NCBI GenBank assembly: GCA_026393075.1
Contig: JAPLAW010000028.1
Location: forward strand, 1-64,000
Source: Actinomycetota bacterium
GTDB taxonomy: Bacteria; Actinomycetota; Actinomycetes; Nanopelagicales; Nanopelagicaceae
Length of the DNA: 64,000 bases
Reading direction: 5' to 3'
Of this stretch, positions 4,628-6,802 are shown one piece after another. The notes beneath the pieces were generated by a model. The model was not told where the DNA came from. It made no database searches and worked only from the letters and a program-made list of their open reading frames with translations. The position numbers and the translations under genes were made by a program. Every line of letters begins with the position of its first letter. The first letter of the stretch is position 1.

Positions 4628-5239
4628 TTACTTATCTGGAACGGCTGAAGGTGAAATTACTGCCTCAGCGACCTCTTTCATGGTGATTCGGCGATCCATG
4701 GCAGCTCGTTGAATCCAAGAAAATGCCTCGGGTTCGGTGAGATTTAGCGCCTTCATCAAAATACCTTTTGCGCGATCAATTACTTTACGAGTCTCTAGTC
4801 GATCGTGAAGATCTGCTACTTCATCTGCCAGTGATCGCATTTGAGTATGTCGGCTGATTGCAATTTCTATCGCTGGCACCAAATCAGAAATCGTGAATGG
4901 TTTAACGACATATGCCATTACGCCAGCATCACGCGCACGATCAACGAGCTCTCGCTGACTAAATGCAGTCAACATGAGAACTGGAGCGATCGCGATAATT
5001 TTTTCAGCAGCAGAAATTCCGTCGAGAACTGGCATCTGTACATCAAGAATAGCTAGATCAGGTTTATGTTCATTGGCTAATGTGATTGCTTCTTCGCCAT
5101 TAGTTGCTTGGGCAATAACTTCATAACCAGCTTCGGTAAGCATCTCGACTAAATCCATGCGAATTAATGTTTCGTCCTCAGCAACCAAAATGCGAGTGGC
5201 AGGTGAAGTAGAACTCTTGCTACTACTTTGTGAACTCAT
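4628..5239 (-). CDS. pdtaR: ANTAR-domain response regulator (PdtaR-like)
   Basis: This is a 203-aa two-domain protein. The N-terminal receiver domain (about 15-125) has the acidic pair E21/D22, the phospho-acceptor D66 in LAILDVQMP, the T/S position in LMLTAF and the K in VVKPF. The C-terminal ANTAR RNA-binding domain (about 135-195) has the signature DRAKGILM and ends with a helix rich in RITM. Mycobacterial PdtaR (Rv1626) has the same layout and acts by binding paired hairpins in mRNAs to prevent termination. The ATG lies one base after the mature tRNA 3' end, so no room exists for a Shine-Dalgarno outside the tRNA. Its kinase partner (PdtaS type) is not in the window. Confidence 0.92.
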   Translation of the reverse strand: MSSQSSSKSSTSPATRILVAEDETLIRMDLVEMLTEAGYEVIAQATNGEEAITLANEHKPDLAILDVQMPVLDGISAAEKIIAIAPVLMLTAFSQRELVDRARDAGVMAYVVKPFTISDLVPAIEIAISRHTQMRSLADEVADLHDRLETRKVIDRAKGILMKALNLTEPEAFSWIQRAAMDRRITMKEVAEAVISPSAVPDK

Positions 5240-5240
5240 G

Positions 5241-5313
5241 TGCCTCGAGTCGGATTCGAACCGACACTATGCAGTGTTTGAGACTGCCCTCTCTACCGTT
5301 GGAGTACCGAGGC
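5241..5313 (-). tRNA. tRNA with CAA anticodon (Leu, class I shape)
   Basis: A 73-base cloverleaf folds cleanly. It has a 7-bp acceptor stem (one terminal G-U) with discriminator A73, a D-arm with CTC/GAG, an anticodon stem GCAGT/ACTGC closing loop CTCAAAC, a 5-base variable loop ATAGT, and a T-arm GTCGG/CCGAC with loop TTCGAAT. CCA is not encoded. The anticodon is CAA, which reads the leucine codon UUG. Bacterial leucine tRNAs are normally class II with a long variable arm, so the short variable loop is unexpected. A73 fits leucine identity. A -10-like TACAAT lies ten bases upstream. Confidence 0.88.
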
Positions 5314-5323
5314 TAGAATGGCA

Positions 5324-5329
5324 ATTGTA
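5324..5329 (-). promoter_or_regulatory. -10-like element for the tRNA-pdtaR unit
   Basis: TACAAT on the minus strand matches five of six bases of a sigma70-type -10 box. It ends ten bases before the mature tRNA 5' end, so transcription would begin only a few bases before the tRNA. No convincing -35 was found at the usual distance. Confidence 0.45.
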
Positions 5330-5362: not shown

Positions 5363-6802
5363 TTAGCGATACGCAGGCGCAGCGCCTGATATCGCATCGC
5401 CAATTCGGTGCACACGCATCGCATTGGTTGAACCTGGAATTCCGGGAGGCGAGCCAGCCACGATCATTACATTCTCGCCCACTACGCCACGGCCACTTTC
5501 GACCAGCAAAGTATCTACTTGCTTAACCATCTCATCAGTGTGGCTAACCATCGGCATGATCATCGACTCAACGCCCCAAGAAAGGGCTAATTGGTTATAA
5601 GTAGCAGGATCTGGCGTCAGTGCCAAAATCTGAATTGGTGAGCGAAGCCGTGACATACGGCGGGCTGAGTCACCACTTTTAGTAAATGCAATTAAGAATT
5701 TAGCATCGACAATCTTGCCAACTTCAGCAGCGGCCTTAGTAATAGCACCACCCTTGGTTTTAGGCTGAGTACGCATTGGGCGAATTCGATCCATCATGTC
5801 CTGCTCAGTTTTAACAATGATGCGAGACATAACCTGCACTGCTTCAATCGCAAATGCACCAACGCTGGTCTCGCCAGAGAGCATTAACGCATCGGCGCCA
5901 TCTAGAACTGCGTTTGCGCAGTCAGTTGCTTCAGCGCGTGTTGGCGTTGAATTAGTAATCATTGAATCAAGCATCTGGGTTGCCACGATTACTGGCTTCG
6001 CGGCTTCGCGTGCCAGTTCGATACAACGCTTTTGAACCAAAGGCACATCTTCAATTGGTAATTCTACGCCCAGGTCACCACGTGCAACCATAATGCCGTC
6101 GAAGGCATCAACAATTTCTTGTAAATTTTCAACTGCTTGCGGCTTTTCAATCTTGGCAATAACTGGGCGACGGATACCAACTTGATCCATGATCGCGTGA
6201 ACATCATCAATATCAGCAGCGCTGCGAACAAATGAGAGAGCAATAAAGTCGGCGCCCGCAGCCAAGCCCCAAAGAAGATCTTCTTTATCTTTTTCAGATA
6301 GCGCTGGAACAGATACTGCAACACCTGGCAAATTAATACCTTTGTTATTGCTAACAGTGCCTGGCTCAATCACTTTCGTTACAACGTCGTTGCCTTTAAC
6401 TTCAACAACTTCAACAGTTACTTTTCCATCATCAATCAAGATTCGATCCCCTGGCTTGCAATCTCCAGGTAAGCCTTTATAGGTGGTGCCAACGCGCTCT
6501 TTAGTGCCCTCGACTTCATCGGCTGTGATCGTAAAAATATCTCCGCGAGCTAAATCATGTGGTCCATTAGCGAAACGAGCCAAGCGAATCTTGGGACCTT
6601 GTAAGTCAACCAAAATAGCAACTGGCTGATTTGTTTCAGCTGCAACTGAGCGAACTAAATCAAGTCGGCTTTGATGTTCGTCGTATCCCCCGTGTGACAG
6701 GTTTAGTCGAGCCATGTTCATGCCAGCTGCAATCAGCTCATGAACCTTCTCGGAAGATTCAACAGCTGGACCCATCGTGCATACAATTTTGGCGCGGCGC
6801 AT
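5363..6802 (-). CDS. pyk: Pyruvate kinase
   Basis: This 479-aa enzyme converts phosphoenolpyruvate and ADP to pyruvate and ATP, the last step of glycolysis. The substrate and metal region begins KIVCTMGPA with R32 in NMARLNLSHGG. The catalytic lysine segment IEKPQAVENL, the metal-binding GDLGVELP and the signature VATQMLDSMI are all present. The C-terminal allosteric domain is intact. It lies between gltD and the tRNA-pdtaR pair, as in other Actinobacteria, and a 9-bp perfect inverted repeat lies just upstream. The length is standard. Confidence 0.97.
   Translation of the reverse strand: MRRAKIVCTMGPAVESSEKVHELIAAGMNMARLNLSHGGYDEHQSRLDLVRSVAAETNQPVAILVDLQGPKIRLARFANGPHDLARGDIFTITADEVEGTKERVGTTYKGLPGDCKPGDRILIDDGKVTVEVVEVKGNDVVTKVIEPGTVSNNKGINLPGVAVSVPALSEKDKEDLLWGLAAGADFIALSFVRSAADIDDVHAIMDQVGIRRPVIAKIEKPQAVENLQEIVDAFDGIMVARGDLGVELPIEDVPLVQKRCIELAREAAKPVIVATQMLDSMITNSTPTRAEATDCANAVLDGADALMLSGETSVGAFAIEAVQVMSRIIVKTEQDMMDRIRPMRTQPKTKGGAITKAAAEVGKIVDAKFLIAFTKSGDSARRMSRLRSPIQILALTPDPATYNQLALSWGVESMIMPMVSHTDEMVKQVDTLLVESGRGVVGENVMIVAGSPPGIPGSTNAMRVHRIGDAISGAAPAYR

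Follow-up and report, generated by a model that had tools for sequence, protein, structure and literature searches.

A class I-shaped tRNA-Leu(CAA) gene adjoining pdtaR in a Nanopelagicales genome and its short-armed counterparts in Actinomycetota

Structure of the locus

The window, a stretch of 64,000 nucleotides, contains a single tRNA gene according to ARAGORN, namely a tRNA-Leu(CAA) on the minus strand (5240/5241-5313). The gene (5241-5313) sits between pyk, its upstream neighbour encoding pyruvate kinase (5363-6802, minus strand; Pfam PF00224 and PF02887), and a pdtaR-like gene encoding a response regulator receiver domain and an ANTAR RNA-binding domain (4628-5239, minus strand; Pfam PF00072 and PF03861). 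The reverse complement of 5241-5313, GCCTCGGTACTCCAACGGTAGAGAGGGCAGTCTCAAACACTGCATAGTGTCGGTTCGAATCCGACTCGAGGCA (73 nt), matches Rfam family RF00005 with 54.2 bits (E value 7e-9; gathering score 29). On direct reading it folds with an acceptor stem of 7 bp, including one G-U pair, a D stem of 3 bp followed by a C13/A22 mismatch, and anticodon and T stems of 5 bp each; CCA is not encoded. The CAA anticodon (positions 34-36), read from the sequence and by ARAGORN, lies at 5278-5280 on the minus strand and the variable loop AUAGU (positions 44-48) at 5266-5270 on the same strand, its terminal U48 pairing with A15 in a combination that covaries with G15-C48; the discriminator A73 is the minus-strand base at 5241. 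The preliminary description of an intact 73 nt cloverleaf with a CAA anticodon, a 5 nt loop and A73 is confirmed by ARAGORN, Rfam and direct reading; it was silent on the minus strand and on the end of the tRNA 1 nt before the pdtaR start codon.

The shape is that of a class I tRNA, with a variable loop within the 4-5 nt range and 7/5 acceptor/T stems, whereas the variable region of a class II tRNA exceeds about 10 nt and forms a stem of its own. The 7/5 arrangement also rules out an allo-tRNA (8/4 or 9/3). Across 14 diverse homologs, standard pairs fill 99.3% of pair cells and double-sided changes occur in 15 of 21 pairs, compared with 8.2 in shuffles and at most five with the partners slid. 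A pseudo-tRNA was rejected on the basis of these compensatory changes and the absence of decayed stems. Orthologs were found in 39 of 39 Nanopelagicales loci. A TACAAT sequence 10 nt upstream of the tRNA 5' end (5324-5329, minus strand) is a possible -10 box, and TAnnnT motifs resembling it precede the tRNA in most relatives; it is graded as a weak candidate because a full sigma-70 match was absent from the upstream region at the scan threshold.

Leucine tRNAs of the source genome and its relatives

The best matches of the PdtaR protein are from Nanopelagicales (acI freshwater actinobacteria), including Ca. Planktophila versatilis and P. lacus; the source organism belongs to this order and is Planktophila-like. 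The source assembly (1.42 Mb in 70 contigs, 94% complete) contains four leucine tRNAs in an Rfam search: CAA and UAA, both short, and UAG and GAG, both long. The same four, with the same arm lengths, occur among the 38 tRNAs of the complete chromosome of Ca. P. versatilis MMS-IA-79; given this four-member set, the short tRNAs are the only ones with UUR anticodons in that organism. Two further complete relatives have both short UUR tRNAs, and a pattern search of these two chromosomes found no long one. No CAA or UAA tRNA with a long arm came to light in the source genome or its relatives, either in the Rfam search or with a pattern spanning both lengths, and the class II tRNA-Leu(CAA) envisaged elsewhere by the preliminary description was accordingly not found in the source genome or the complete relatives. 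Because the both-length pattern overlooks tRNAs whose D loop lacks GGYAGA, as in Streptomyces, the complete tRNA sets of a Mycobacterium-like and a Streptomyces-like genome were read separately (see below).

Two incidental observations concern these assemblies. Source contigs C32, C50 and C65 carry unusual tRNA-like genes whose calls are Val(GAC), Val(TAC) or ambiguous; three have an identical T arm, and the anticodon stems are weak or shifted. These genes are absent from the complete P. versatilis set. In addition, Nanopelagicales-type loci with PdtaR 80-95% identical to that of the window occur in public MAG records under the titles Bifidobacterium breve or Streptomycetaceae, and these titles look wrong.

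Meaning of the UUG and UUA codons

Genes of the window and of the three complete-genome relatives were aligned with other actinobacteria by tblastn to tally which residue stands opposite each codon. Leucine occupies 76.9% of 3381 cells in UUG columns and 74.6% of 3962 cells in UUA columns, compared with 69-76% for the four CUN codons in the same test. Where window UUG columns are conserved to at least 90%, the residue is leucine in 14 of 14. Of the 343 leucine codons in the seven window genes compared, 146 are UUR. By this alignment, UUG and UUA are decoded as leucine and coincide with conserved leucine positions at the same rate as CUN codons; reassignment of UUG was rejected on the same grounds.

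UUA is readable only by the short UAA tRNA, and therefore at least this tRNA must carry leucine. The CAA tRNA should likewise be leucylated, judging from the identity core that the two share. The UAA tRNA could in principle also wobble to UUG, so that the codon test speaks more directly for leucylation of the UAA tRNA than of the CAA tRNA.

Leucine identity and charging

Leucylation in Escherichia coli is reported to require A73, A15-U48, G18G19 and A20a, the variable arm being dispensable; for other systems A14 and U8-A14 have been given as leucine identity elements, and an armless tRNA-Leu(UUR) is a substrate of human mitochondrial LeuRS (PMC9976931). The tRNA-Leu(CAA) of the window possesses all of these elements, A14, U8-A14, A15-U48, G18G19, A20a and A73. 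The joint occurrence of A14, A15, YAG after G18G19 (the D-loop beta region, with A20a), A22, U48 and A73 characterizes the four leucine tRNAs of P. versatilis and is seen in no tRNA for another amino acid in its 38-tRNA set. A14, A22 and A73 occur in every one of 45 distinct short tRNA-Leu sequences (45/45 each); A20a is present in 43, as are A15 and U48, the remaining two having G15 with C48, a compensatory change.

A full-length, bacterial-type LeuRS is encoded in each of the three complete relatives. No LeuRS gene was found in the incomplete (94%) source assembly, where it has probably been lost in an assembly gap: in P. versatilis the gene directly follows tRNA-Ala(GGC), and in the source assembly this tRNA (contig C46, 39-111) sits 38 bases from a contig end.

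The gene is, in our assessment, very probably a working tRNA-Leu that reads UUG and is charged by LeuRS without a long arm, and that together with the short UAA tRNA decodes all UUR codons. Recognition by LeuRS would rest on A73 together with the folded core of D loop and T loop (A14, A15-U48, G18G19 and A20a), and the missing long variable arm is one that bacterial LeuRS reportedly does not require; leucine would then be attached to the short tRNA and UUG read, with the equally short tRNA-Leu(UAA) as a partner completing coverage of UUR. Both charging by LeuRS and expression of the tRNA are what we infer from sequence.

Of the two readings offered in the preliminary description, a LeuRS tolerant of a short arm is strongly favoured, because UUG and UUA mean leucine, the short tRNAs are the sole UUR readers in a complete relative and the identity core is intact. 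The other, in which a different synthetase charges the tRNA and UUG is reassigned or ambiguous, went unsupported: the atypical shape alone speaks for it, class I tRNAs being normally substrates of other synthetases, and with UUG matching CUN in how often it falls on conserved leucine positions, and a leucine-type core shared with no tRNA for another amino acid, we regard it as highly improbable. Somewhat less remote, although still unlikely, is a pseudogene or a non-translational role, with the UAA tRNA reading UUG. The U34 of that tRNA could wobble to UUG and the CAA gene is tightly fused with that of a regulator, but the cloverleaf has been kept through extensive compensatory change, the tRNA is present at every Nanopelagicales locus seen and the complete genomes hold no other CAA tRNA; moreover, the UAA tRNA is short-armed too, so that the main conclusion would hold even then. 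Deletion of the arm by an assembly or sequencing error, raised in the preliminary description and conceivable for a genome in 70 contigs, has a negligible probability and is refuted by the same short gene, nearly identical, in three independent complete chromosomes and about 36 other assemblies.

Junction with pdtaR

The pdtaR start lies exactly 1 nt after A73 in 31 of the 39 Nanopelagicales loci, including the window (5239-5241). At this spacing the start codon is ATG, or GTG in five loci, and is nearly always the sole in-frame start, with the next codons varying freely. The remaining eight loci have a pdtaR start 28-64 nt downstream, several with a Shine-Dalgarno-like stretch. This arrangement suggests that the tRNA fixes the 5' end of the pdtaR mRNA. 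Human mitochondrial tRNA-Leu(UUR) also closely precedes an open reading frame, which is left with hardly any leader. As a gap of 1 nt cannot accommodate a leader, processing of the tRNA 3' end would yield a nearly leaderless pdtaR mRNA, or else the GAGG of the acceptor stem would serve as the ribosome site of an unprocessed transcript. Nearly leaderless mRNAs starting with ATG or GTG are translated well by mycobacteria (PMC4633059). A search of four Nanopelagicales genomes for RNase Z of the standard family, a candidate 3' processing enzyme, yielded nothing above the cut-off.

Distribution in Actinomycetota

The preliminary description implied that such a tRNA is rare. This proved wrong: at least 77 of the 396 Actinomycetota genomes sampled contain short-armed tRNA-Leu(UUR) by a pattern with class I spacing (UYAAA, 8 nt, AGUGU, T arm), and many phages carry it too. 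The reversed control pattern gave zero matches in the genomes listed. In the complete Mycobacterium-like genome (45 tRNAs) both UUR tRNAs are short and the three CUN tRNAs are long; in the complete Streptomyces-like genome the CAA tRNA is short and the UAA tRNA (bldA-like) is long, the genus labels being ones that we infer, among other things, from gene content. A paper on six Streptomyces genomes gives one CAA tRNA gene for each, SCOt09 being the sole UUG tRNA of Streptomyces coelicolor M145 (PMC4932002). Short and long versions of one anticodon were not found together in any of 40 genomes (pattern search).

Every CAA tRNA checked by synteny, short or long, adjoins pdtaR. The short form occupies this locus in Nanopelagicales, the Streptomyces-like and Mycobacterium-like genomes, Kineococcus, Actinomyces, Demequina and more distant families, and the long form occupies it in Arthrobacter and its relatives, Kineosporia and Humibacillus. 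By synteny, the short and long CAA genes next to pdtaR are versions of one orthologous gene. No plasmid match to the CAA gene was found, and spread by plasmids was rejected for this reason. A tree of 86 PdtaR proteins implies at least five changes of arm length, at least two of them forced by well supported branches; under midpoint rooting the deepest branches carry short forms, the direction of change being dependent on the root.

A broader reading, which we put forward tentatively and consider rather less than an even chance, is that the short tRNA-Leu(UUR) is an old, phylum-wide alternative that has been swapped with the long form repeatedly at one locus, and that it serves in addition as tRNA punctuation in Nanopelagicales, where processing behind A73 would give a pdtaR mRNA with a 1 nt leader, such that tRNA maturation sets the expression of an ANTAR RNA-binding regulator.

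Relation to known leucine tRNAs

The short form resembles bacterial class II tRNA-Leu in its leucine anticodon, A73, A14, A15-U48, A20a and 3 bp D stem with a 13/22 mismatch, and shares its place beside pdtaR with the class II tRNA-Leu of Arthrobacter, Kineosporia and Humibacillus. It differs in having a variable region of 5 nt rather than 11-18 nt, C13 where class II tRNA-Leu mostly has G13, and a conserved AGU(G/C) before the T stem. Like animal mitochondrial tRNA-Leu(UUR), it combines a short variable loop with leucine identity through A73 and A14 (PMC9976931), although the tRNA described here is bacterial and its canonical arms are fully paired. A leucine tRNA with a short variable loop, tRNA-Leu(UAG), has also been reported from a tRNA gene cluster of two mycobacteria; it is an extra isoacceptor, with a normal long-armed one elsewhere, and is not the sole reader of its codons (PMC6582537). 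A paper on an M. tuberculosis toxin names Leu-2, 3 and 5 as the long-looped ones (PMC11541572).

According to a 2023 review, bacterial tRNA-Leu is always long-armed (PMC9976931). This rule does not hold for Actinomycetota: in the Mycobacterium-like and Streptomyces-like genomes, among others, UUG or UUA has a short tRNA as the sole reader found. Such genes are not new, phage copies being publicly annotated as tRNA-Leu, and the generalization was not found in a search of open-licence literature, which turned up scattered contrary remarks and no description of the phenomenon as such; this is weak evidence of novelty. There are consequences for tRNA gene annotation, isotype calling and models of how LeuRS and SerRS discriminate between tRNAs, as well as for predictions concerning toxins that recognize the variable arm and for the choice of orthogonal tRNAs. 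With both forms at one orthologous locus, the reason for retention or loss of the arm is directly testable.

Short leucine tRNAs in phages

The CAA tRNA as query gave three phage matches and the mycobacterial short UAA tRNA gave 121, not all of which are UUR tRNAs. The hosts of the matched phages include Streptomyces, Mycobacterium, Escherichia, Shigella, Citrobacter, Salmonella, Vibrio, Pseudomonas, Rhizobium, Lactobacillus, Bacillus and cyanobacteria. In eight phage records the matched stretch was read and a short leucine tRNA was confirmed, with the anticodon UAA, CAA or UAG. The strict pattern gave at least 120 matches in IMG/VR; among the matches listed, 80 of 80 loci are short tRNA-Leu(UAA/CAA), with U48 in 79 and A73 in all 80. 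Phage short tRNA-Leu, such as those of Streptomyces phage Alone3, Synechococcus phage S-CREM1 and Escherichia phage vB_EcoM_3HA14, share the short loop, the core and (some with variants) the AGUGU motif with the tRNA of the window; they differ in that their hosts may own a long-armed tRNA-Leu and in that some anticodons are UAG. Phages may have spread the short form or may have taken it from actinobacteria.

Short-armed tRNA-Leu(UAG) occurs in phages of E. coli, Bacillus and Streptomyces, extending the short form to a CUN reader. Matches to the short tRNA-Leu query in Acinetobacter phage 133 and Vibrio phage vB_VpP_BA6 are annotated as tRNA-Met or tRNA-Trp and are either cross-matches or mis-annotated tRNAs.
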